Positions 2,903 to 23,340 of a stretch of 26,066 nt of DNA are shown in pieces (position 1 is the stretch's first letter; each line of letters opens with the position of its first letter). A program made the position numbers and the translations under genes. The notes beneath the pieces were generated by a model that was given only the letters and a program-made list of their open reading frames with translations, was not told the origin of the DNA and ran no database searches. The stretch is taken from the NCBI GenBank assembly GCA_009602725.1, contig WELB01000129.1, positions 182,322-208,387 on the forward strand, given 5' to 3'. This DNA comes from Spirogloea muscicola. Its lineage: Eukaryota; Streptophyta; Zygnematophyceae; Spirogloeales; Spirogloeaceae.

Positions 2903-3588
2903 TGTAACGTTCCCACTTACTGTGAGCGTTAACCCCGGTGGTTACGCTAACCTAATTGGCACGTGGCCGACCAGGCCTGGCCAGTTGGTCCCGCACGGGG
3001 GCCTCGGTGGCGCGGTGTCCACCCTGGCGCCCGGCGCACGGGGCCACGGTGGCACGGTGTCCACCCTGGCGCCCGGCGCACGGGGCCGCGGTGGCGCGGT
3101 GTCCACCCCGGCGCCTCAACACGTTGGCCCCGACAGCGGGGCCGTCCCCTCGGCAGGCCTCTCCCTCGGGGCGAGCCCGCATGCGGCCCGCCCCGCGGGG
3201 TGGGCCATGGAGCGACCCCATGCGCCCCTGAGGGCGGGCGGCACCGGGAGCACAGGAGTCTGGGGGCTGAGAGCTAAGCAGCAGTTTGGATCAGTGAACC
3301 CCGAGAGCGGCGTAGCCCTGCTGCTGCGCCTGCTGCTGCAGCTCGCCGCCGCAGGACGCTGCCGGCTCGCTGCACGACGTCCGTGGCCGGCCCTTGGTGG
3401 GCTAGCTGCGGGCTGGTGCCCGAGAGGTGGAGACGCCGCCTGACGGCGGCACCACAGGGCAAGACTTCCACTGCGCGCCGAGGCGCGAGGTGCTTCACGG
3501 TGTAGGGGTTTGTTTCTAAATCCCTACGTCCAAACCCAATAAGGACATGACTGCCTAATTGCCAGTCTGCAGGGGCCGAGTCATGACA
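2903..3588 (+). mobile_element. Solo LTR, family 2 (686 bp), with 5-bp target duplication
   Basis: Starts TGTAACGTTCCC and ends GAGTCATGACA. The five bases before it (GGCCG, 2898-2902) and after it (GGCCG, 3589-3593) are identical, the normal target duplication of a Ty3/gypsy insertion. No internal region follows, so the element was reduced to one LTR by LTR-LTR recombination. The 3' end is confirmed independently: the minus-strand copy at 18040 has the same terminus followed by a two-base gap and a primer-binding site. The first half holds a 42-bp tandem repeat. The 3' third carries the block shared by the LTR families here (gaggtggagnCGCCGCC, then aaacccaataaggac). Confidence 0.92.
2994..3115 (+). 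repeat. 42-bp tandem repeat inside the solo LTR (about 3 units)
   Basis: Three consecutive units begin cacggggcc at 2994, 3037 and 3079. Each contains a GGTGGCRCGGTGTCCACC core, and the third unit is shorter. The core GGTG..CACC is itself partly palindromic. It lies in the U3-like half of the LTR, where enhancer-like repeats are common, but a regulatory role is only inferred. Confidence 0.8.
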
Positions 3589-7940: not shown

Positions 7941-8095
7941 ATGCCAACGCGGAGCGACGTGCACTACTCGCCCTCGCCGGCGGATCAGCAGCAGGACGAG
8001 GCAGATCTGCCGTCGGAGGCGTTGGATGACGGTGCTGCGGCTAGCGACGGCGAGGGCAGCGCATCGTCTGACGTCAGCATGGATTGGGAGGAGAC
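7941..8095 (+). pseudogene. Truncated acidic ORF broken by the chromovirus LTR
   Basis: An ATG at 7941 opens a frame rich in Asp, Glu, Ser and Ala (DEADLPSEALDDGAAASDGE, later SDVSMDWEE). The frame runs across the LTR edge at 8096 and ends at a TGA inside the LTR (8118-8120), for 59 codons in all. The acidic, biased composition resembles the N-terminus of a retroelement Gag or of a nuclear protein; no family is recognised. It follows repeat X by 132 bases, so it may be the first gene of that element. The remainder is not found on the far side of the chromovirus at 15446. Confidence 0.45.
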
Positions 8096-8957
8096 TGTAA
8101 CGTCCCCATCCGTTACGTGACGTTTAACCGTGGGTTGAACGCTAACGCGTGGTAACGGCACGCGGCCCCGGTATCGTTGGCGTGCGACACGTGGGCGACG
8201 CGCGGGCAAGTGAGACGCAGCTCACCGCGGCTCGCCGGAGCTGTCGCCGCAGGGCCGCCCGGGCCCCCGGGCCATGGCCGCCGCCGCCCTCACGACCGTT
8301 CCGCAGGGCGGCACCGCGCAGGGCGGCACTGCGACGTGCCCGTCGGCGGCATGTCCGCCGAACTGGTGAGCGCCACCTCTTGGCCGCCGGACTCGTAGTG
8401 ACATACCTGTGACGCCTGTAGCGCAGTGACGCGCCTGGCGGCGCCGCGCAGGGCGGCGTCGCCGCCCTCACGACCCGTATCCCCCCGTAGGGCCCGCCTT
8501 CTCGAGGTGGGCCTTGAGGCGAGCCTCCCAGAGACCCTTGGGGAGGGGTGGCACGTGAAGCACTATAAGTAGGGCTGAGACCAGCCTCCGGGGACCCGGC
8601 TCTGGTCAGCGAAGCCCACGCCAGAGAGAGGCGCGCAGCCCTGCTGCCGCCTGCTGCCGCAGCTTGTCCGCGCAGCCCTGCTGCTGCCTGCTGCTGCAGC
8701 CCGACGCCGCAACCTGTCCCTGCGGATCTTCATCGGCTCTTCTGAAGGTAGACTGTGGCTGCTCCCTTTGGGGACAGTTGCTGGCCCGTACCGAGAGGTG
8801 AGTCGCCGCCTGTCGGCTGCGCCTCAGGGCAAGGTATTCCGCTGCGTGTGCATGTGGTGCTTCTCTGTGCTGGGGGTTTCGTCTCTAAACCCCAGAGACA
8901 GAAACCAATCAGGACGTCCTAACCCTTAACTGCTTGTGAAGGGCTTAGAAGGCTTCA
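8096..8957 (+). repeat. 5' LTR of the chromovirus (862 bp)
   Basis: Starts TGTAACGTCCCC and ends GGCTTCA, giving TG...CA ends. It matches the 3' LTR along its full length except for a missing 15-bp unit (gcagggcggcaccgc) near 8445 and a few substitutions. The U3 side is rich in GTTACG/CGTAAC dyads and cgcagggcggc repeats. A TATA-like element is at 8564, and a CTGCTGCCGC-rich stretch follows. Confidence 0.95.
8564..8572 (+). promoter_or_regulatory. TATA-like element in the 5' LTR
   Basis: TATAAGTAG lies about 470 bases into the LTR, just downstream of an end-of-U3 block (gaggggtggcacgtgaag). It is conserved at 15052-15060 in the 3' LTR. It is the likely core promoter for the element's genomic transcript, which would put R downstream of about 8595. 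This is inferred from position only. Confidence 0.6.
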
Positions 8958-8959
8958 TT

Positions 8960-8970
8960 TGGTATCAGAG
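8960..8970 (+). other. Primer-binding site, initiator tRNA-Met type
   Basis: TGGTATCAGAG begins two bases after the LTR terminus. This is the standard complement of the 3' end of initiator methionine tRNA used by many LTR retroelements to prime minus-strand synthesis. The same sequence, with the same two-base gap, occurs on the minus strand at 18026-18037. Confidence 0.92.
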
Positions 8971-9510
8971 GGGTCCTTGTATCTTGCTAGCCTTGTATTC
9001 TGTGATGATACGGCTGACAATGCAAGGATCCTTCTGATGCTCTGGCACTGACTAGTCTCTTGTGGTTGAGACACTTTGCCAGACCGTACTCGTGGATCTG
9101 CATCGACGGGCCGATTGATACTGTTGTCCACTTGCCCGCTGCATCCACAAGCCCGGGGTCGACCAATGTCAAGTGTTCCACCACCCCGGCAGCCACCGAC
9201 ATTGCCAGGTCAGTACTCGCCCGCGTAACCACCTGCGGTCGGCGGATTGCCTGTCTTTTGACAAGGAGGTGAAACCGACCGCCGATGGGCGGCGAGTCTG
9301 GCCATGTGCCAGAGGCTGGTCCATACCCAGTTCTGGCCCCTCCCTCGGCTGCGCTTGCTGCTTGCGTTTTGGGGATATGGCTTGCGCGCTGCCATGATTG
9401 CTTTGCTTTGCTGGGGCACCAGCTTGCTTAGTGTGTTGTGGTAGTATTGTCTTCTCGGTGTGTCTTGCGCCCTCCCACTGACTTGGCCTTCAGTGTGTTG
9501 GTGTAAAGGC

Positions 9511-11844
9511 ATGGAGTCCGAGGACTCAAGTGCGCAACTTAGCGCCCCTCCGCAAGGAGTGCCACCGGCCGACGTCGAGGATGTGGCCAACGAGTTGGCG
9601 GAGCTCCACGCGCTCGGACCAGACGGCCTTTCAACGGCCGATGCACAGCGCCTACGGCGCCTGAGGGAGCTCGTCGAGGCAGCGGCCCCTGGTGGGAACC
9701 CGCTGGTAACCCCAGTCCTGACGGCATTGAGCGAGGAGGTACGAGTTCTCATCAGCCGCTTGTCTTCGGATGAGCAGCGCACTCGTCGCCTCCGAGCGAA
9801 GGTCGACCGTGGTGCGCGGTTGGGCCGTGCCCAGCCGTGCCAACCGTCAAAGTTTGACGGGCAGGGGAGCCTCCCAGCCTGGATCAGAGAGATGAATGCA
9901 TGGTTCGTGCTATGCGAGGCGCCGGTGACGTCCCGAGTGGGAATCGCCGCCACCTACCTCACCGGTGATCCAGCCGCCATTTGGGAGAGTACAAAGGAGT
10001 CCTCGACGCCCAGAGAATATAATACCTGGGACTTCTTTACCCGCTCGTTGACCACCTTGTACGGAGAGGTCCATGCTGAGCTTAAGGCGCGTAATCAACT
10101 CGATGCTATGCGTATGGTAGACGATGATTTCGAAGTTTATGTGCGTCGTTTTCATCTTATTCTGATGAAATGTGGTAACATGAACCCGATGGACCAAGTC
10201 CAGTGGTTCAAAGCTGGTCTGCCGCAACATGTGGCGGTACTGTCCCAGCTTGACAAGCTCACCCATTATGTAGTCAGTACCCTCGATAAGTTCATAGAAC
10301 AAGTACGACAATCTTTCTTGATGTACCCAACAAAGAAGCGCTTATTCCGAGGTGAGGACCGTGACGCGCCAAGGCCTTCGGTGGTGAAGCGTCATAAGCC
10401 TAACCATGGTGGTAAGCCTCGACCCCCGCCTCGGTCGGCGGCAGTGCCCAAGGGCAAGGCCAAGGCCTTCGTCCCTGAGGAAGACCGAGCTTGCTACCGG
10501 TGCGGCAACAAGGGGCATCGCATTCGGGACTGCCTACAGCCGCCGAAGACTCCAGCGTCGTCTACACCATCCTCGACACGCCCTAAGGGCCAGTACAAGG
10601 ACAAGGGTAAAGGGAATAGTGAGTCCCCTTCCTTAACTTCCTTATGTGTAATTCAGCAGCGTGGTATGAATATGCTGTTTGAACTTGTAGGACGAGCATG
10701 TCCAAAGTCCGTTGTGCCAGTAGTATGCTCTGTGCATGAGCTTATGCAAGCACTGGTAGATGGTGGCCCCCTCGTTGTATGGGTTCCTTCTAATCAGCTG
10801 CAGAAAGCTGCGAACATGTATTTGAGCTGGATCAGTTTACACAGTACTAAAGAACCTGTCTTCTTTATTGTGCCGTGCAGTCGCGGAATGAATCCTCTAC
10901 CTCCAAAGGGGCTGGCTTTGCTGTGTCGCCGGAAGGCGGGCCACCTCCACGTGAAGTACGGAGTGAAGGACGGATCTCCAAGACCTTCTAAACTGCTCAT
11001 CTTCGTAGCTAGTAGTTATATTCTTACGGCAGTAGGTGCCTCAGCACTCAGCGCTGACGCGCCAACTATGTTGTTCTCAGGACTGGTGCCTAGTCAGCCA
11101 GCCCAGATCCTTATAGACACAGGGGCTGCTGTTTCTTGTGTTAGTAAGAATTTTGTGAGTGACAATGGTTTGATTGTAAAACCTACTACCATTTCACAAG
11201 CTACTTTGGCAAATGGACAAAGTGCCGAAATTGTGGGCCTATGTCAAGTTCCTCTAACCATTCAAAACTTAAAGACGGTTGTGTCTTGCCATGTCCTTGA
11301 GTTGGCATTGGGGTTTGATGTGATATTGGGCGATGACTGGTTGTGTTCTAATAAGGCCCTCCTTGACTTTGACGCGCGGACTTGCTCGGGCCGACAGGGT
11401 TCTCGTCGTTTTGTACTGCACAAAGACGTTCCCTTTATACCATCGCCTGTGACAGAATCCTCTCTTCAGCTGTCGGCTGTGCAGTTTAAGAGGGTCCTTC
11501 ACGCAGAACCCACCTCGGCTGTGTATCTGCTAACGGTGATGGAAAGTGAGTCCCCCCCTGACTCAGTAGTAGTGAGTAATGTGGCCTCACATGGTGCGGC
11601 TCTTGACAGCTTGTTGGAGGAATTTGCGGATGTGTTCCCCGATGCCCTCCCGGACGGTTTGCCTCCTGACCGAGGCGTGGCTCATACAATTCCACTAGAG
11701 CCCGGCGCTGTATCGCCGTACCGTCCAATGTATCGACTGAGTCCTCTCGAATTTCGGGAGATGCAGTCCAAGTGGAGGAACTGCTACGGAAAGGCCATAT
11801 TGAGCCTTCCCAGTCGCCGTACGGTGCACCAATCCACTTCGTAA
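9511..11844 (+). CDS. Gag-protease polyprotein with an unusual inserted domain
   Basis: 777 codons from the ATG at 9511, chosen because MESEDSS opens a typical acidic Gag start; the frame is open from 9460. It has a Gag core (about residues 100-260, with [26 protein letters not shown] and [10 protein letters not shown]) and a basic linker. A CCHC zinc knuckle follows ([14 protein letters not shown], 10492-10533). Next comes an unassigned segment of roughly 130 residues (about 10660-11030), then an aspartic protease with [10 protein letters not shown] near 11110 and LGDDWL downstream. The C-terminus enters the RT leader ([12 protein letters not shown]), then shifts out of frame near 11770 and stops at 11844. 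Gag coats the RNA and the protease matures the polyprotein. In most chromoviruses gag-pol is one ORF, so the late shift is probably a mutation. Confidence 0.93.
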
Positions 11845-14501
11845 AGAAGAAGGATGGTAGTCTTCGTATGTGCATCGATTATCGAGCCTTAAACAAGCTC
11901 ACCGTCAAGAATCGGTATCCTTTGCCTCGAATAGACGACCTGTTCGACCGTCTAGCGGGAGCTAATGTGTTCAGCTCCCTCGATTTGCAAAGTGGTTATC
12001 ATCAAATTCGTATTACCCCTGAGGACGTCCCGAAGTCGGCATTCCGTACGCCGCTCGGTCACTTCCAGTTCAAGGTGCTCAGCTTTGGTTTGACCAACGC
12101 ACCTGCCACATTTCAGGCGGTAATGACGAAAGTCTTTGGCCCCCTACTGTATGACTTTGTGCTGGTCTATCTGGATGACATACTGGTGTTTAGTAAAACG
12201 CCTGAGGAGCACGTACGTCATTTGCGGCAAGTGCTGCAACTATTACGTGCAAACCAGTTGTATGCCAAGAGATCCAAATGTGTATTCAACCAGCCTGAGC
12301 TCACCTACTTAGGGCATGTTGTAGGCAAAGACGGGGTACGCGTCGACCCCAAAAAGACTTCAGCAGTAAAGGACTGGCCTGTGCCACGGAATGTGCCATC
12401 GTTGCGGTCCTTCTTGGGATTCGCAAATTACTTCCGCAAGTTTCTACAAGGGTACGGAAGTATGGCATCTCCTCTTACGAAGCTCACTCGTAAGGACGTC
12501 AGCTGGGTGTGGACGTCGGAATGCCAGAAGGCATTCGAGGATATCAAACGGGTCCTGGTGAATCCACCTGTTTTGGCCTTGCCTCGAGAAGGCGTGCCAT
12601 TTGAAGTAGTATGTGACGCCTCTTTGATCGGCATTGGTGCCGTACTCTTGCAGGAGGGTCATCCCGTAGCATTTGAAAGTCGCCTGCTTCGTCCTGCAGA
12701 GCGTAACTACACTACGGGGGAGCAAGAGCTCCTTGCTGTTGTGCACGCCTTACGTGTGTGGCGTTGCTATCTCGAGGGTGTTGACTTTACGGTCGTAACG
12801 GATCATTGCCCGTTGACCTATTTTCACACACAACAGCAATTGAGCAGGCGTCAAACACGGTGGGCTGAGTGTATAGCACAATTCCGTTTCCAGTGGTTGT
12901 ACCGCCCTGGACGTATGAATGTTGCGGACCCGGTAAGTCGCAACATTGCAGGGGCTGCTGTGGCGGCTGTCTTGCACGCTTCAAGGGGTCAGACCGCAGA
13001 CGTGCGGCCTACTCGTGGAACTGCTCGGCAGTCCACCGCCAACCTCTCTGAGCTGTATGTGCGTATTCGTGATGGGTATGGCACAGACCCATGGTTTGCG
13101 GCTAAAACCAATACACGCACACTAGTAAATGACCAAGGCTTTTGGTGGCGAGGTGACGCCATTGTAGTTCCTGACTGCAATGCCTTGCGCACCAGTATCT
13201 TGCAAGAACTGCATGAGCCTCCGTATAGTGGTCATTTGGGTATGGGAAAGACGAAGAAAGCCGTCCAGCTTCTCTTCTGGTGGCCGGACTTGAAAGCTCA
13301 AGTAGAGTCTTTTGTAAGGACTTGTGCCACCTGCCAGCGCAGTAAGGCACGCTCTCATAAGCCTGCCGGGTTGCTCCAACCGTTGGAGATTCCTCCGAGG
13401 AACTGGTCTGATGTAAGTGTGGATTTCATCACCCATTTGCCGAAGACGAAAAAGGGTCATGATGCCATTGTCGTATTTGTGGATCGTCTGAGTAAAATGG
13501 CGCATTTTGTGCCTACGACCACAAAGGTGTCAGCCAAAGAGTTCGCTGGTATCTTCGTGGACCGCGTATGGAAACTGCACGGAGTCCCCGAGCGGATCGT
13601 GTCTGACCGCGATCCTCGCTTTACGGGGCACTTCTGGAAGGAAGTGTGCAGGCTGATTGGCACCCAGCAATCCATGTCCACGGCTTTCCATCCCCAGACA
13701 GATGGTCAGACGGAAAGAATGAATCGGGTGTTGGAAGACATGTTGCGGCATTTTGTAAACCCCAGTCAAAGTGACTGGGATGAGTATCTTGCTCCAGCGG
13801 AGTACGCCGTGAACAATGCCTTCTACGAGTCAACCAAGAATACACCCTTCTTTCTTAATTATGGTCAGCATCCCCGAGCACCTTTACAGGTGGGGAGGCC
13901 GGAACGTGTGCCGGCCGCAGTAACTTTTACCGGGAACCTCCTGGAAGCTCAGCGGAGGGCTAGGCAATGCTTGGAGATTGCCCAGCAACGGCAAAAGCAG
14001 TACGCTGATCGACGTCGACGGGATATATCCTTCGACGTGGGTTCTCAAGTGCTACTCAGCACAAAGCATCTCTCCATGCGGGCTGTCGGTACGCCTAAAT
14101 TGCTACCAAAGTGGGTTGGACCTTTTCGTGTAGTGCGTCTGGTCGGCAAAGTTGCGTACGAGCTGGACACGCCGGTACATTGGAAAATCCATAAAGTATT
14201 CCATGTGTCCCAGCTCGAACCATTCCATACGGATGGTCGTGTCCAACCGCCCCCACCTTCCCTTGTCGTCAAGGATAATGAAGAGTTTGAGGTGGAGGAG
14301 ATCTTGTCTCACCGCGACAAACTCCGTGGGCGACGTAAGTCCCGAGAGTATCTTGTAAAGTGGAAAGGCTATGGGCCTGAACACAATACGTGGGAACCTT
14401 CGGGCCATCTTGCCCATTGCCCGTCCGTTCTCCGTAAGTATCTTGCAAAGAAGAAACTCCCTCCTTTGCGTAGTACTTCTATGACTACCCGTCAAAAGTA
14501 A
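11772..14501 (+). CDS. Pol: RT, RNase H, integrase, chromodomain
   Basis: 909 codons in the frame one base behind gag-protease, overlapping it by 73 bases. The frame opens mid-domain without an ATG; the first Met in frame is at residue 33. RT: residues 1-170, YLDD at 133-136, with [20 protein letters not shown]. RNase H: about 276-390, CDAS (Asp282) and TDH (Asp344). Integrase: HHCC zinc site at His481, His488, Cys518 and Cys521, catalytic Asp551, Asp612 and Glu648 (D-35-E spacing), and GPF motif near 783. Chromodomain: about 838-892, [19 protein letters not shown] and NTWEP. The chromodomain normally steers integration toward marked chromatin. All catalytic residues are present, so only the frame break upstream appears disabling. 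Confidence 0.95.
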
Positions 14502-14554
14502 TTTGACGAACTCTCCTTCCGTACCAAGTCCTTGTTCCCGAGGACGTGAACATC

Positions 14555-14568
14555 AAAGTGGGGAGGAA
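14555..14568 (+). other. Polypurine tract
   Basis: aaagtggggaggaa lies directly against the 3' LTR start (TGTAACG at 14569). It is nearly all purine, as expected for the plus-strand primer left by RNase H. Confidence 0.8.
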
Positions 14569-15445
14569 TGTAACGTCCCCATCCGTTACGTGACGTTTAA
14601 CCGTGGGTTGAACGCTAACGCGTGGTAACGGCACGCGGCCCCGGTATCGTTGGCGTGCGACACGTGGGCGACGCGCGGGCAAGTGAGACGCAGCTCACCG
14701 CGGCTCGCCGGAGCTGTCGCCGCAGGGCCGCCCGGGCCCCCGGGCCATGGCCGCCGCCGCCCTCACGACCGTTCCGCAGGGCGGCACCGCGCAGGGCGGC
14801 ACTGCGACGTGCCCGTCGGCGGCATGTCCGCCGAACTGGTGAGCGCCACCTCTTGGCCGCCGGACTCGTAGTGACATACCTGTGACGCGTGTAGCGCTGT
14901 GACGCGCCTGGCGGCGCCGCGCAGGGCGGCACCGCGCAGGGCGGCGTCGCCGCCCTCACAACCCGTATCCCCCCGTAGGGCCCGCCTTCTCGAGGTGGGC
15001 CTTGAGGCGAGCCTCCCAGAGACCCTTGGGGAGGGGTGGCACATGAAGCACTATAAGTAGGGCTGAGACCAGCCTCCGGGGACCCGGCTCTGGTCAGCGA
15101 AGCCCACGCCAGAGAGAGGCGCGCAGCCCTGCTGCCGCCTGCTGCCGCAGCTCGTCCGCGCAGCCCTGCTGCTGCCTGCTGCTGCAGCCCGACGCCGCAA
15201 CCTGTCCCTGCGGATCTTCATCGGCTCTTCTGAAGGTAGACTGTGGCTGCTCCCTTTGGGGACAGTTGCTGGCCCGTACCGAGAGGTGAGTCGCCGCCTG
15301 TCGGCGGCGCCTCAGGGCAAGGTATTCCGCTGCGTGTGCATGTGGTGCTTCTCTGTGCTGGGGGTTTCGTCTCTAAACCCCAGAGACAGAAACCAATCAG
15401 GACGTCCTAACCCTTAACTGCTTGTGAAGGGCTTAGAATGCTTCA
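14569..15445 (+). repeat. 3' LTR of the chromovirus (877 bp)
   Basis: Same ends as the 5' LTR (TGTAACG...GCTTCA), and 15 bases longer through one extra gcagggcggcaccgc unit around 14925-14940. Visible substitutions against the 5' copy include cctgtagcgca/cgtgtagcgct, gcacgtg/gcacatg and ggctgcgcc/ggcggcgcc. The TATA-like element is at 15052. It is followed at once by part of a family-3 LTR. Confidence 0.95.
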
Positions 15446-17506: not shown

Positions 17507-18025
17507 ACTGGGGCGCGCACTGGAGTATCGGACTCCATGCCTCCTAACGGAAAACTGAGTGATCAAGTCAGAATCCGATGGTCAGCATATCAAGACTCCA
17601 TATTGAGTAGCAGGACACCGCAATACTGGTGCCCAAGTAAGCGAGCAAGCAAGACAGCGCGCTAATCCGTAACCCCATACAGCATGCCAGACAAGCAACT
17701 GCAGAGAAGGTCCAAAACCGGAGCACAAAGCCGAGCTTGGTGGAACGATTGACCTTTGCCGCCCAGCGGCTGCCGGTCTCACCTGCCACTCTCAGATGGG
17801 CTATCGCCGACAGGCCGTGGACGCGTGCGTAGGAAAGTCGGCAGCCGTTGCCGATGGTCGTGGCGCCGGGTCAACAAAATTGCGATTGCCGCCCGACTGC
17901 ACTGCCACATCCCTGCTCTGACAGAATTTCTCTCGCTCAAACGAGAAAAGCAGAGCAGAAAATCAAGACGATCCATGCATCAGCTGTCTGTTAAAGAGAA
18001 CAAGACCTGCAAGATGCACGAACAG
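17507..18025. other. Leader-like region of the minus-strand element
   Basis: No significant open frame or recognised motif on either strand. It lies between the second hairpin repeat and the primer site, so in the minus-strand element it would be the untranslated leader. Confidence 0.4.
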
Positions 18026-18037
18026 CCTCTGATACCA
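18026..18037 (-). other. Primer-binding site (minus strand), initiator tRNA-Met type
   Basis: The minus strand reads TGGTATCAGAGG two bases inside the LTR end at 18040. Sequence and spacing equal those of the chromovirus at 8960. This shows that the LTR at 18040 is a 5' LTR of a minus-strand element. Confidence 0.9.
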
Positions 18038-18039
18038 AA

Positions 18040-18325
18040 TGTCATGACTCGACCCCTGTAGACAGGCAATCAGGCGGTCAAGTCCTGATTGGGTTCGGAT
18101 GTAGGGACTTAGGAGCAAACCCCTACACCGTGAAGCACCTCGCGCCTCGCGCGCAGCGGAAGTCTTGCCCTTTGGAGCCGCCGTCAGGCGGCGTCTCCAC
18201 CTCCCGGGCACCAGCCCGCAGCTAGCCCACCAAGGGCCGGCCACGGACGCCTGGCAGCGAGCCGGCAGCGTCCTGCCGGCGACGGGCTGCAGCAGCAGGC
18301 GCAGCAGCAGGGCTGCACCGCTCTC
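18040..18325 (-). repeat. Truncated 5' LTR, family 2
   Basis: The reverse complement matches the 3' part of the solo LTR at 2903-3588: terminus GAGTCATGACA, the gtgtaggggtttg..nnctaagtccctac block, ggtggagacgccgcctgacggc, and the (ctg)ctgcgcctgctgctgcag stretch. Similarity stops at about 18325, so roughly 400 bp (the U3 side) is missing. The next bases are already coding sequence of HAP2. Confidence 0.88.
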
Positions 18326-18363
18326 CCTCGCCGTTGAGTGCCGCTCTCCCTCGCTGTTGAGTG
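18318..18363 (+). repeat. 23-bp tandem duplication at the LTR-HAP2 junction
   Basis: ccgctctccctcgccgttgag + tg (18318-18340) is repeated at 18341-18363 with one mismatch. The first copy begins in the last bases that align with the LTR. It may be a scar of the rearrangement that joined the truncated LTR to HAP2. Confidence 0.75.
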
Positions 18364-18602
18364 CCTCGCTGCTCGCTCAGCGTTGGTACCTGGTCCAGGC
18401 TATCGTCATCGCAAAGAGTGACATCACCGAGTGCGTGGTGCAAGGCCCACATGGAGAGGGGAGCTCGCGGCAAGGAATCAGTTCAGCGCCGGCGCCTGCT
18501 CCCTCACATAGGCCGACGGGAAGGTCCAGTCCTGCTTCTTCGATGGCAACCATGGACTGCCAGAAGAAGGTGGTTATCAGCATTACCGTCTCCAATGGCC
18601 AG
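18326..18602 (+). pseudogene. HAP2: HAP2 exon 1 (signal-peptide end and first conserved block)
   Basis: The frame reads LLSASLLAQRWYLVQA, a plausible signal-peptide tail, then IVIAKSDITEC and, after a Pro/Ser-rich stretch of about 35 residues, DCQKKVVISITVSNGQ followed by donor gtatgt at 18603. In HAP2 the first Cys and the DC..K block are normally only a few residues apart, so the linker is unusually long. No in-frame ATG lies upstream; the frame runs back into the LTR. The start codon is missing or sits in an exon outside this stretch. Confidence 0.8.
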
Positions 18603-19309
18603 GTATGTTGCGGCGAAAATGTCGTCGAGGGAAGAGTCCTCATGCGGCGATAATCCTGAATTTCAATGTCGACATTCTTGGAGGTTTCCTTGGAAGCATA
18701 AGCAGCGGGGAAATGTCACCCGAGCTGCTTCTAATACGTTGAAAAGCATCACCCATGATGCGGGAGAGCACCTGCGATGCATGCGCTGCCTGGATGAACA
18801 AGCCGATTCTGCAACATAGCCGCACTGACGACTTTTGGTCGTTGACAGACGGAAGCAGGCCAAGCCTTGGAGGCCGTTGTCTCTTCCGTCCAAGATGGAA
18901 ATGGGACCTCGCACAAGCTGGCAGAACCCCTCATGATCACCATAACCAAGTCTCCAGTGTACGCAGTCTACCCTCTTACTTACATTCAGGTGGGTAAGGA
19001 TTTGCTCGGGCACAACGAAGAGATTCTTTCCAAGCAATCTCTTTTGCTTCAGCAGCCATAAGCCGCGTCACTTGAGCATACCCTCAATCCGACAGGATAA
19101 ACATGTCATTACTCAAGGCAGACATACTCACTGAAGTCAAACAATGCAGCAGGCAAACATGCTCTGAAATATGTACAGTTGAAAGAAGCAAGTGACCTCT
19201 GCCTTGAGCAGACGTGGCTGCTCCGCAGCACTTCGTGCGTGCTTTGGTGTGCTTGTGGAAGTGTACGCCCTGGTCTGACCACGGTTTCCCTGCAACTCTC
19301 ATCTGGCAG

Positions 19310-19435
19310 TCCTTCAATGGCAAGCCATATGAGGAGGTGGTACTAACAAAGCATTGCGATGATGGTGACTCAGCCAGCAAGCCCACCTGTGGGTGGTTCC
19401 TCAATCCAGATGGTTCTCATGTCTATGCTAGCCAG
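19310..19435 (+). pseudogene. HAP2: HAP2 exon 3, 'TCGW' block
   Basis: 42 intact codons between acceptor ggcag and donor gtgaat: SFNGKPYEEVVLTKHC, DDGDS, PTCGWF, NPDGSHVYASQ. The preceding exon (ends YPLTYIQ at 18989, donor gtgggt) and this one join in phase 0. This is among the most conserved HAP2 segments and was decisive for the identification. Confidence 0.88.
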
Positions 19436-19672
19436 GTGAATGTATTAATTATTCCTTTTCCGTAGTGGGAAGCATGTGATTTTAGAAGAGGCTCACTTAC
19501 TCCACTGCAGATTTCAGTAATTCTGACCACAGGTCTGCAATTCAATAGGGATTTTGCATATAACGTTTGGTTGTGTAATAATAGCTGACGCAAGGCGTGG
19601 CATGACATTTGGAGTGCATGCGTTTCTTCAGCACTACTGTCTTTGACGTGTCCTGGGAATCCAAAACTTCAG

Positions 19673-19778
19673 GACTTTTGCTGTAAATGTGGGGCCGATA
19701 GTGCATTCGACCAGTCTATTTTGGGCACCAGTGGTGGCAGTTACTGAGCGCACCTGGACTGTAATCTTTGCAGCCAAG
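19673..19778 (+). pseudogene. HAP2: HAP2 exon 4 with in-frame TGA
   Basis: Reads DFCCKCGAD...GGSY, then TGA at 19745-19747, then AHLDCNLCSQ in the same frame, ending at donor gtttct (19779). The family has GFCC, so Gly is replaced by Asp, and a basic residue stands where the TGA is. A single C-to-T change (CGA to TGA) would explain the stop. The next exon (19980, LFLGGIPASAHCLRF) joins in the expected phase, so the TGA is not an intron artefact. Confidence 0.8.
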
Positions 19779-20527
19779 GTTTCTTGTCTTACACCTCCTA
19801 AGATTGATTCAAACACACGAAAACCTCCTCTTAAGTAGCTGTGCATATGGTAAAGCGGATAGCAGAGCGGCGTTGTTAATCAAGGGAGAATGGACTATGC
19901 TCAGCGAGTAGTCAGGCCATTGTTACTTTTATTGAACGAGTGACACGGTAGCAATTTTGCAGATTTGTATATTTTGCAGGTCTTTTCTTAGGTGGGATCC
20001 CAGCTAGTGCCCACTGCCTTCGCTTCTCTGACACCTGGCAAGAAAACAAGATGCCAGCGAAATCCAGATGTGGCACTTGCTCGGTTGGTGCTAAGTTATT
20101 TGCTGAGATATGAGTACAGTATCGGTGCGTCACAGCGGCGTGTGCAATTTCTCAAGCTGCTTCAAGCACATTAAGAGCTCCAAACATAAGCACAGGTCAT
20201 GCTCATGTAACAGGAGCCTGTGACACCTGCCTTACCTTATGACGTACCATCTGCTAAATAGCAGCATGCCTATTGCCTCAAAGGTATCCGACTTATGAGG
20301 TTGGCCCTGCTACACTGGAGTTCCAATTACAAATCACAAAAGCAAAGGTTGACGAAGAAAGTTCATCAGCAGTATGTTCCTACAAACTTTCCCTGGTGTG
20401 ATGTTGTATCTTTTGGTCTAGAGCTGGGCATGTAATCCCTAGATCCGTATCCTGGTGCTATTTACACGTATTGCCACTTGGCCAGGCTTTATAAATCATG
20501 TTTCTTTCTCATTTTATGTCCTCCAAG

Positions 20528-20662
20528 GAGGTGTTGACACTGAGTGCGAGCTCGCCAGTGGCCCTGAATAAGGACCGCATTATTAGCGCAACTCTAATCG
20601 GGGACTTCATCACCTACACGCAGCTTCCTGTCCTCGCATCATACTACCTCTCAGTCCCTCAG
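20528..20662 (+). pseudogene. HAP2: HAP2 exon 7
   Basis: 45 intact codons from acceptor ccaag to donor gtgagg: EVLTLSASSPVAL, then DRIISATLIGDFITYTQLPV and ASYYLSVPQ. The LxGD and P-L-x(4-5)-L-x-V/I-P pattern is characteristic of HAP2. It is phase 0 on both sides. Between 20160 and 20527 no exon could be placed. Confidence 0.85.
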
Positions 20663-20855
20663 GTGAGGTGGCGCTTGATACATGAGCATGCAGCGCTTGC
20701 AACTGCTTGCAAGACCTGTTCAAGCAGATGCTCACATTTACATCACATTGCATCATCTCATAGTTGGACACAGAATAATGGCAAAGCGAAGTCATCATGG
20801 CCCCCACACTGTATTACACTGATCTGAAACATCTTAACACACTGCCGCTACACAG

Positions 20856-21050
20856 ATGGTGGGTGTCAGTCCTAGCAACCTGACAACAAGTGTGACGGGG
20901 TCGTTGCTTCTCGACAAGTCTGTCTATACTCTTGATGGTTCTGAATATAACAAAGTCGGGAGCAGCTTTGCTGCCTTCCGTTACGAAGCGTCTCGATGTC
21001 AGAAGCAGGTTGGGAGCTGCCTGGCCAATCAGCTGGCGGACTACGCCAAG
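20856..21050 (+). pseudogene. HAP2: HAP2 exon 8
   Basis: 65 codons from acceptor acacag to a GC-type donor (gcaagt, 21051). Reads GSLLLDKSVYTLDG, then SEYNKVGSSFAAFRYEASRC, SCLANQL and ADYAK. The family has Cys two positions after DG-x in this block (DG.xCxK); here it is Tyr (TAT), a change one G-to-A transition from TGT. The other two cysteines are kept. Confidence 0.85.
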
Positions 21051-21144
21051 GCAAGTATAACAACCTGCAACGGCAAGCCCTGGAGGTTTGTTGCCACCTT
21101 AATGACTCTACATCATTACATGTTACTTGACGTTGGCTCTGCAG

Positions 21145-21225
21145 GCTGATGCCGGTAGGGTAAGCCGGGGAGATACCCCATAGTATGCCCTTACAGCCAT
21201 GGGAGCAGTGTCGCCATACATTGCT
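21145..21225 (+). pseudogene. HAP2: HAP2 exon 9 with in-frame TAG
   Basis: From acceptor ctgcag the frame reads ADAGRVSRGDTP, then TAG at 21181-21183, then YALTAMGAVSPYIA up to donor gtaagt. HAP2 proteins have a P-(hydrophobic)-Y motif here, so the TAG replaces that hydrophobic residue. The exon is 27 codons, phase 0 on both sides, and joins correctly to 21399 (GDGNLSIAIVVDQ). Confidence 0.75.
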
Positions 21226-21398
21226 GTAAGTGGGCTGGTCCACCACCATTTAGGCTTGACGTATCTACAAGCTTGTGTACAACCTTTTGGGCCACTAAGT
21301 GTCGATGTTGCCGTGCAAATCAAGCGGTGGCTTTGTCAGGGCCTCCTGATCAGCAAGGATCTGCCCTCACCGTGTTGTGATTACCATTTGTGTACCAG

Positions 21399-21772
21399 GG
21401 TGATGGTAATCTCAGCATAGCAATAGTAGTGGATCAAATACTGAACTCCCTAGTCATTTTGGAACTCAACGCCGATAATATCACTTACCTTGTCAACAAG
21501 TACGTAAAGAAAGCACTTCTAGACCACCAATGTGCTGTTATGCCTTCTCCAGTTTGCAACACAGCGTCTGTTGACTGACATAGCTGATAAAGCTGATGTA
21601 ATTTCACAGCCTGCTTATGGCTTGCTAGTTCTTGTCACCTGGGCTTGGCTGCAGATCTCCCGGTCAGATAATCAATGCAACGCTCCCAGATTTCGAGGCA
21701 ATCTCTAGCTCCGGGAAGATGGTCGTCCTCGTTCGCAATACAGGAGGCATTGTGGCTGACTACATCGTCTCT
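21399..21772 (+). pseudogene. HAP2: HAP2 exons 10 and 11 (domain before the membrane-proximal part)
   Basis: Exon 10 is 21399-21499 (donor gtacgt) and reads SLVILELNADNITYLVN. Exon 11 is 21655-21772 (acceptor gctgcag, donor gtacgt). The codon split across the intron is AA|A, giving K before SPGQIINATLPDFEA, then GKMVVLVRNTGG and DYIVS. Both are free of stops. The next block (NCSEGIAPI) is readable at 22060-22089, but no acceptor in the right phase precedes it, and the gag remnant begins immediately after. Confidence 0.85.
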
Positions 21773-22100
21773 GTACGTCTGACTCGTTGATGGCGCCCTC
21801 ATGCTAGAACAGTTACAACCACGACCATGCAATACATCTATGCCTGTCTAGCCACATGTGTTGAGCTATACCTGTTTCATATCCATAGTTTTCTAGCCAC
21901 ATCTAACTCCGCTGCTGGGTCATCAGATTCTGATTAAGCTGCAACCTGCAACCTAAGTATCATAAGTGACCAGCCCCGCCATTCAAGGCAGCAGAGCTGA
22001 TAAGATGCTGTCCACGCTATTGCACCTAAACCAGGGCGGTGTTTGTTTTACATATGCAAAATTGCTCTGAAGGGATTGCTCCAATTGTTGTTTGTGAGCA

Positions 22101-22814
22101 TCACCAACTACCTTGACGGCTTGAAGCGGTTCTGCAGATTTGCCTGTAGAAAGTCAGGTTCATGAAGATTTTGTTCACTGCAACATCGGTGTCGCCTGCG
22201 AGGCACTCAACACCGATCTCAGTAACAGACTCGTTAGGCTTGCGGGGAAACCGCATCAATTCCTGCTGATGCTTAATATTGTCTTCAGGAGAATGATAAG
22301 CAAGACGATTGAGCATCTCTTGGACTGGATCCTTTAACAGCTGAGGGCCTCTTGCCTTCTCCTCTGCAGATGCATCGTCTGCTGTGGGGGTAGTCATGGT
22401 TAGAACGGTTCCCTTCAACCTCCTAAACACATTACTGGCCTCCCCACTTAAGTAACGACTCAATAACCGCATTGCCTTTTTGCGGCTAATGGCACAGCCG
22501 TGCATCTCATAGTGACAACACTCGGCTAGATAGTGCTCCTGGATATCTGCAAGTGAGGCACCACCAGGAATACCTGTATAACGTGGCTTCTCGCCTTGAG
22601 ACATGTTGGCGGAACGGTGCTTCGGGATATGTACTGCTCGAGTGGGAGGTTCCGCCTCAGGTTGCTCGGGGACACTATCACCAACCACAGGAACAATATT
22701 AAAAGGATCAACACCAACCACAGGAGCAATATCTAAAGGATCAACACCAACCACAGGAACAATATCCGATGAGTTAATGCCCGACTCTAGGGTCCGACCA
22801 GACCTCAAGTCCAT
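22101..22814 (-). pseudogene. Retrotransposon Gag N-terminal fragment
   Basis: 237 minus-strand codons starting MDLRSGRTLESG. An imperfect tandem repeat follows (VPVVGVDPLDIAPVVGVDPF), then RYTGIPGG, HYLAECCHYEMHG, and RLLSRYLSGEASNVFRRLKG, the latter being the typical Gag capsid 'RYLSG.A..WFRRLK' signature. An acidic linker and a helical stretch complete it. No zinc knuckle or pol follows: the frame ends at 22101, where HAP2 sequence begins. It belongs to a different family from the Gag at 9511. The upstream Met at residue 71 could be the real start. Confidence 0.75.
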
Positions 22815-22829
22815 ACACCATATCCCAAA

Positions 22830-23340
22830 TGAGTTCTAGTTACCACACAAGAGAATGCAGAACAAGTCGTTCTCGGCTCTGTAAATGTGTGTGCGAGCAA
22901 CAAGACGTTCACCAAGTAGTACTAAATGCAGGTCTGAGATCGATTGATCGTAACACGTTCCGTAACCAATTTATAGTAACTCAAGTCAGAACGGGGGCCT
23001 AGCCCAGCCTATCTACTTGGTAACGGGGGCCAAGCCCAGGCCTATCTATTTCGAACAGGCTCCAAGCCTTGTGTCGACGAGTGTCCAAACAAGGATGCAG
23101 TATGCACTCTAACAAGGAACAACAGATGCTGGATGTATGCAACACCTCAGAGCAACGCAAGATTATGCTTGCCAGTTGCCCAACAACACACGAGGTCACA
23201 ATCTTTGTGTCTTACCACGTGTGTCCGGTCTTACGCGCCGGTGACGGAAGCTCCTCGGAGGTAAGGCTCTTTAGCGGCAAATGCGTGAACACCTATGCCA
23301 CGCCCTCCTGGCGTGACACTGTACGCTCGCACTACGCTCG
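22830..23340 (-). repeat. Probable LTR or leader of the minus-strand gag element
   Basis: On the minus strand, 22816-22827 reads TGGGATATGGTG, two bases inside a TCA end at 22830. That geometry equals the primer sites at 8960 and 18026, but the sequence is a poor match to TGGTATCAGAGG. A TATA-like CTATAAATT lies at 22969-22976 (minus), and a 32-bp tandem duplication at 22991-23054. The outer end of the LTR could not be found, and the putative primer site touches the first Met of the gag frame, so this call is tentative. Confidence 0.35.
22991..23054. repeat. 32-bp tandem duplication
   Basis: Two units, acgggggcctagcccagcct... at 22991 and acgggggccaagcccaggcc... at 23023, each ending in atctaYtt. 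Both contain a short GGGGGCC..GCCC foldback. Confidence 0.8.

Follow-up and report, generated by a model that had tools for sequence, protein, structure and literature searches.

HAP2/GCS1 is a class II gamete fusogen. In Chlamydomonas HAP2 (PDB 5mf1, 6dbs and 6e18; Pfam family PF10699), the conserved blocks stand in the same order as in a gene copy of the alga Spirogloea muscicola, which lies in a stretch of 26,066 nucleotides (nt), hereafter the window. The window is an exact match to C129:182322-208387, where C129 is contig WELB01000129.1, scaffold s129. The TCGWF, SAHCL and NCS motifs are common to the window copy and the HAP2/GCS1 family. Unlike the family, the window copy lacks a start, the end of the ectodomain and the membrane anchor, and it carries two stops and broken splicing. 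It is like the non-processed (duplicated) pseudogenes in that its introns are kept, its disabling changes are private and open relatives exist. There is no essential difference from that class, although the two halves of the window copy differ in their nearest relative. The Zygnematophyceae, to which the alga belongs, are described as the sister lineage of land plants in the accessible part of PMC12069490 and as fusing non-motile gametes by conjugation in that of PMC11341676, and the number of working HAP2 genes in the group is of interest for these reasons.

Our analysis indicates that the window copy is very probably a dead, non-processed and relocated HAP2/GCS1 duplicate, that is, a pseudogene, whatever the timing of the events. 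Its eleven introns align to those of the other copies in the assembly, as in a non-processed pseudogene, and because they were kept the segment was copied as DNA, not from mRNA. The disabling changes (two stops, a lost 3' splice site, an altered 5' splice site and a frameshift) are private to it among four copies and absent from the intact relatives. The homologous block is bounded by a repeat junction on each side; its 5' end lacks the start of the signal peptide, and its 3' end lacks the ectodomain end, membrane anchor and tail. To judge from these features, the copy most likely does nothing now. Any product would be without the signal peptide start and the membrane anchor, and its fusion-loop region would be cut short by termination at the stops or lost if these were spliced around.

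Identity and lesions of the window copy

The HAP2/GCS1 part of the window spans positions 18363-22219 on the + strand and comprises the first 12 exons and 11 introns of the gene. Five joined block groups, drawn from exons 1-8, 10 and 11, matched PF10699 (HAP2-GCS1) within profile positions 3-404 of 515. Their scores of 39.8, 57.5, 33.1, 51.6 and 60.4 bits all exceeded the curated Pfam cut-off of 27.4 bits. When the joined blocks were searched with the stops entered as X, the crystal chains of Chlamydomonas HAP2 were matched at E 5.9e-70 to 1e-69. The family match is far beyond chance. Among 7993 scored candidates, 28 proteins reached E <= 0.001; two of these carry the SM prefix and were the top two matches, EukProt SM000039S14524 and SM000129S26143. 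Exons 1-12 stand in order and their phases agree with those of an intact 17-exon paralogue on contig C39, a comparison that bears out the twelve HAP2 exon blocks in family order with matching phases given in the preliminary description.

The lesions are spread over the length of the block (all features on the + strand). By alignment to C39, the exon 1 remnant (18363..18602) runs from the end of the signal peptide onward and lacks the start codon, while exon 1 of C39 opens with a start codon and a signal peptide. Exon 2 (18849..18989) has AG and GT borders common to the three other copies. Exons 3 (19310..19435), 6 (20284..20371), 7 (20528..20662), 10 (21399..21499) and 11 (21655..21772) were likewise placed by alignment to the other copies, as were two exons absent from the public gene model of this copy. 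One of these is exon 4 (19673..19778), which holds the CCxC block, the start of the fusion-loop region and an in-frame TGA at 19745..19747; the other is exon 9 (21145..21225), which holds an in-frame TAG at 21181..21183. Both stops, already noted in the preliminary description, are indeed in frame, and all three other copies have a sense codon at each place. The SAHCLRF block forms exon 5 (19980..20037), whose 5' splice site is GC in the window and GT in the other three copies. The NCSEGI block forms exon 12 (22054..22093), which has lost the AG of its 3' splice site and gained 4 bases, measuring 40 nt against 36 nt in each other copy, so that the frame is shifted. Exon 8 (20856..21050), in which a conserved tryptophan and a conserved cysteine are replaced, is also followed by a GC 5' splice site. 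That site is common to all four copies and hence not damage; it probably marks a genuine GC-AG intron.

The TGA at 19745 occupies the position of the conserved domain II salt-bridge arginine, R185 of Chlamydomonas HAP2, which was located as the residue 59 positions after E126 in the aligned Chlamydomonas chain. The E126-R185 numbering is that of PMC6089408; the accessible part of the same paper reports that gamete fusion was abolished when the Arabidopsis counterpart of R185 was changed, and that the corresponding change in Tetrahymena did not eliminate mating. The glutamate of the pair is kept in the window copy (KPYEE) and the arginine codon is the TGA, so the pair is broken; C24, C39 and C49 keep the arginine. 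A test of 71 well-conserved columns among 26 homologues further identified G168D, W312S and C327Y (window numbering) as conserved residues lost in the window copy only. C24, C39 and C49 retain glycine, tryptophan and cysteine at the three sites, and the residue that became tyrosine is cysteine in 24 of 24 aligned homologues.

At its 5' end, the gene is cut off by a dispersed repeat at 17956..18325 (+ strand), of which 17956 is only the start of the query, so that the repeat may extend upstream. It has at least 40 matches beyond its own place, a lower bound given by the best 40 of 719 candidates, one of them at window 3303-3588. In 39 of the 40 the match ends at query position 366-370, mostly at 370, which corresponds to 18325; one weak match ends at 360. 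The repeat-gene junction (18326..18362, + strand) is part of a tandem repeat of period 23 and 2.1 copies (18318-18365), which we take to resemble the tails of some non-LTR (long terminal repeat) elements. Homology to C39 starts at 18362, so the family start is gone and the copy has no start codon, as had been proposed.

At the 3' end, the first 126 bases of intron 12 remain (22094..22219, + strand), and the query part 22101-22219 matched only the four HAP2 loci. The earlier statement that nothing follows the NCSEGI block thus holds for coding sequence, but homology continues past 22093 to 22219, 40 bases before the point in C39 where exon 13 starts. In place of the rest of intron 12 and exons 13-17 stands the start of an unrelated low-copy repeat (22220..22900, no strand assigned; 22900 is only the query end), with 19 diverged matches besides its own place; the single other match of this part begins at 22220. 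No C-terminal HAP2 exon was found in the remaining 3.8 kilobases (kb) of the window. The signal peptide start and the C-terminal membrane anchor, absent here, are present in C39 and C24. A gag insertion common to the copies had been considered when a peptide of the C39 public model resembled the frame opposite to 22101-22835. It was dropped, as that peptide proved to come from intron 12. In the window the element does not begin until 22220, and we take the open frame that spans this junction to be coincidental. Elsewhere in the window, 8070-15210 is a Ty3-type LTR retrotransposon with gag, protease, reverse transcriptase, RNase H, integrase and chromodomain, flanked by direct repeats that are 96-97% identical.

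Three further HAP2 loci and their neighbourhoods

An assembly-wide translated search for a second HAP2 locus, as proposed in the preliminary description, was run with SM000039S14524. All 50 matches fell on four contigs, and three loci were found besides that on C129: C39:595544-600913, C24:152738-158000, and C49:93424-98730. Each of the three carries N- and C-terminal HAP2 parts, and they share with the window copy the exon-intron structure of exons 1-12 and 92-94% DNA identity. They differ from it in having both ends, no lesions and flanks in common. Over the 461 codons of exons 1-11, C39, C24 and C49 have no stop and no indel, whereas the window copy has two stops and no indel. All three are open over exons 1-12, without any of the window lesions.

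The corrected C39 model has 17 exons and encodes 669 amino acids (aa) in one frame, matching PF10699 over positions 2-514 of 515 at 6.4e-123. C39 alone has a cysteine in exon 5 where 22 of 25 aligned homologues have arginine. All 17 exons of C24 were placed by alignment; this copy is open apart from an in-frame stop in exon 17, which falls 13 codons short of where the cytoplasmic tail usually ends. C24 and C49 have GTG as first codon and ATG as second. Exons 13-17 of C49 are known from the translated search alone, in which a TGA falls within the small piece 97917-98000. The equivalent pieces of C39 and of C24 each contain both a TGA and a TAG, and their exons are open nonetheless.

Annotated proteins were also searched, within 0.55 to 1.75 times the query length. 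A query from the C39 C-terminus, whose first 11 residues are intron-derived, returned no annotated fragments at E <= 0.001 among 818 candidates, and a 210-aa query for further annotated copies retrieved SM000129S26143, one unnamed protein and nothing else. Among the protein matches listed, neither C24:152735-158006 nor C49:93421-98730 was represented by an SM-prefixed HAP2 protein, and these loci may therefore be unannotated or of unusual annotated length.

Flanking sequence is common to C39, C24 and C49. A stretch of 1011 bases, 3.5 kb upstream of HAP2 on C39, has three genome matches, on C39, C24 and C49, each upstream of HAP2 and on the same strand. For a second stretch, of 1001 bases and about 24 kb downstream, there are likewise three matches, on the same contigs and in one orientation. 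This is as expected from the recent genome triplication of Spirogloea muscicola reported in the accessible parts of PMC9065682 and PMC11547041. Neither stretch (1011 or 1001 bases) matches C129, a contig with long N runs. On C129, a gene-like segment 36 kb downstream of the window copy (C129:240749-242379, 1631 bases) has its sole other match on C99, at 96%. The second C129 segment tested, C129:140999-142499, turned out to be a repeat and is uninformative about neighbours; its copies on C104 and C236 are listed at 100% identity, which suggests recent transposition in this genome. When about 54 kb of readable C129 flank was compared with about 69 kb of C39, the HAP2 block was the only long unique match; the two other unique matches were of 74-81 bases. 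By the two C39 stretches and the one C129 neighbour, the window copy lacks the collinear neighbours of a homeologue, and on this evidence it is not one of the collinear three.

Age, kinship and rival origins

Intron identity was 90.5-92.3% across all six pairs of copies, and the window copy diverged from the others by 7.7-9.5% in introns. In the tree, the window copy and C24 were joined with full bootstrap support by a short internal branch (0.007), with branch lengths of 0.036 for the window copy, 0.034 for C24, 0.044 for C39 and 0.041 for C49. The window copy paired with C24 at 25 of 34 informative sites. These C24-favouring sites were unevenly placed, being 23 of the 25 left of 20380 and 2 of the 9 to its right (change-point permutation P ~0.001). 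The difference between the window copy and C24 was 4.7% in the 5' half and 8.2% in the 3' half, where the window copy was closest to C39 (6.4%). The half trees supported the window-C24 pair at 100 in the 5' half and at 62, without resolution, in the 3' half. Simple descent from C39 was rejected after this four-copy comparison, in which the window copy pairs with C24 in the 5' half. We infer that this fourth copy dates back almost to the time when the other three split and that it later exchanged sequence with C24; an origin as a mosaic when it was duplicated fits just as well. The HAP2 segment would have been dispersed at roughly the time of divergence of the three other copies, and would either have exchanged sequence with C24 over its 5' half or have been a mosaic from the start.

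Within the pseudogene interpretation, we lean towards a copy that experienced some constraint during part of its history before it decayed. The variant in which it was dead on arrival, as a HAP2 fragment that was moved by repeat-mediated duplication and lacked start and anchor from the outset, is a tentative possibility. This variant accords with the repeat junctions at both ends of the block and with the fact that the tested common flank was not seen beside the window copy. Codon changes bear on both. Against C39, the window copy shows a replacement divergence (dN) of 0.034 and a silent divergence (dS) of 0.115, with 37 replacement differences (two stops included) where 51 to 73 would be expected under neutrality throughout. 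This deficit disfavours death on arrival (P 0.002 to 0.04 over six settings of a neutral-branch test that used C39 alone, although the window 5' half is closer to C24). So does the contrast between 0 indels in the 1383 coding bases of exons 1-11 shared with the other copies and 16 indel events in 2291 compared intron bases against C39. The private changes of the window copy comprised 12 replacement and 9 silent changes and 1 stop codon; the other stop was left out because the other copies differ there. With the stop counted, they speak only weakly against neutrality since origin, the test being marginal (one-sided P 0.057), which leaves room for the dead-on-arrival variant. For C24, C39 and C49 pooled, the replacement-to-silent rate was about 0.30 and neutrality was rejected at 1.6e-6; C39 (P 0.0002) and C24 (P 0.003) rejected it singly, and C49 alone, with 13 replacement to 8 silent changes, did not (P 0.10).

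The other readings concern the origin of the copy and its bearing on sex. Our initial idea, a third homeologue of the triplication decayed in place, is consistent with the triplication reported in PMC9065682 and PMC11547041, as far as their accessible parts go, and with distances from the window copy to the other copies that about equal those among them. It was dropped once four loci were found with flanks common to the other three. C24, C39 and C49 already complete the triplet, and the tested C129 neighbour partners C99, so that an ordinary homeologue is now quite improbable, some doubt being left by the N runs of C129. Among the options raised in the preliminary description, the dead duplicate is the one that the assembly upholds, with three other loci that have N- and C-terminal parts, open exons 1-12 and flanks in common. 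Loss of sex in the lineage, with HAP2 decaying as gamete fusion went unused, would be in keeping with the broken copy, with the C39 replacement at a site with arginine in 22 of 25 homologues, with the C24 stop 13 codons before the usual end and with the failure of C49 alone to reject neutrality (P 0.10). It is very unlikely and not supported, because three putatively functional HAP2 copies are retained open over exons 1-12; their pooled rate of about 0.30 rejects neutrality at 1.6e-6, and they keep the arginine and cysteine that the window copy has lost. In the partly accessible literature on the genus, no statement was found on whether sex is known in Spirogloea. An allelic or mating-type-limited HAP2 version is scarcely credible, given the different scaffold, the 7.7-9.5% intron divergence and the lack of any of the tested flank at the window copy, though N runs could hide one. 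Nothing in this one-strain analysis points to a mating-type-limited copy.

Several observations weigh against the interpretation of the window copy as a dead, relocated duplicate. In the part covered, it keeps 11 of 12 conserved cysteine positions. Its private changes do not differ clearly from those of the three others pooled (33 to 34; Fisher P 0.47), so that long neutral decay is not shown by the codons alone. The region beyond the window end reads N, and the N runs that bound the window (C129:153833-182321, about 28.5 kb, and C129:208388-224220, about 15.8 kb) could hide C-terminal exons or syntenic neighbours. A sequencing error could underlie any single lesion, but several independent lesions agree.

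Public gene models and HAP2 copy number

The window copy is publicly annotated as gene SM000129S26143, with 310 aa. This model was reproduced letter for letter from the window as seven exons with GT-AG introns between 18543 and 21790 (one solution found). It begins at an internal ATG and skips exons 4-6 and 9, the exons that hold both stops and an altered splice site; its exon 8 is extended to 21089, and it stops at 21790, shortly after exon 11. The 310-aa product is probably an artefact of skipping the damaged exons, and it would be without signal peptide, fusion-loop region and membrane anchor. The public C39 model, SM000039S14524, lacks exons 4-6 and 12, though these are open in C39. Its exon 8 is shortened before the GC 5' splice site, which would explain the truncation, and intron 12 sequence is taken as coding. 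The public models thus mislead both ways, a dead copy being annotated as a gene and the C39 model being without the fusion-loop exons, and anyone inferring sex or HAP2 copy number from them would be misled.

A full-text literature search for HAP2 in Spirogloea and Zygnematophyceae found no published treatment of the window copy in the text accessible to it. A more far-reaching and rather doubtful reading is that the window copy is what remains of a fourth HAP2 lineage whose age equals that of the subgenomes, and that it exchanged sequence with C24 over its 5' half and died late while the other three were kept. Under that reading, it would be either a paralogue already present before the polyploid arose or while it was forming, or the vestige of an additional parental genome. 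If so, the alga would once have carried four fusogen genes, and homeologue-specific use of HAP2 would become testable. Taken alone, the window suggests a dying fusogen; with the genome, three copies were kept open after triplication and one is dead. What gives the locus general interest is that a conjugating alga retained all three HAP2 copies after triplication, and that the public models of its HAP2 genes are faulty.

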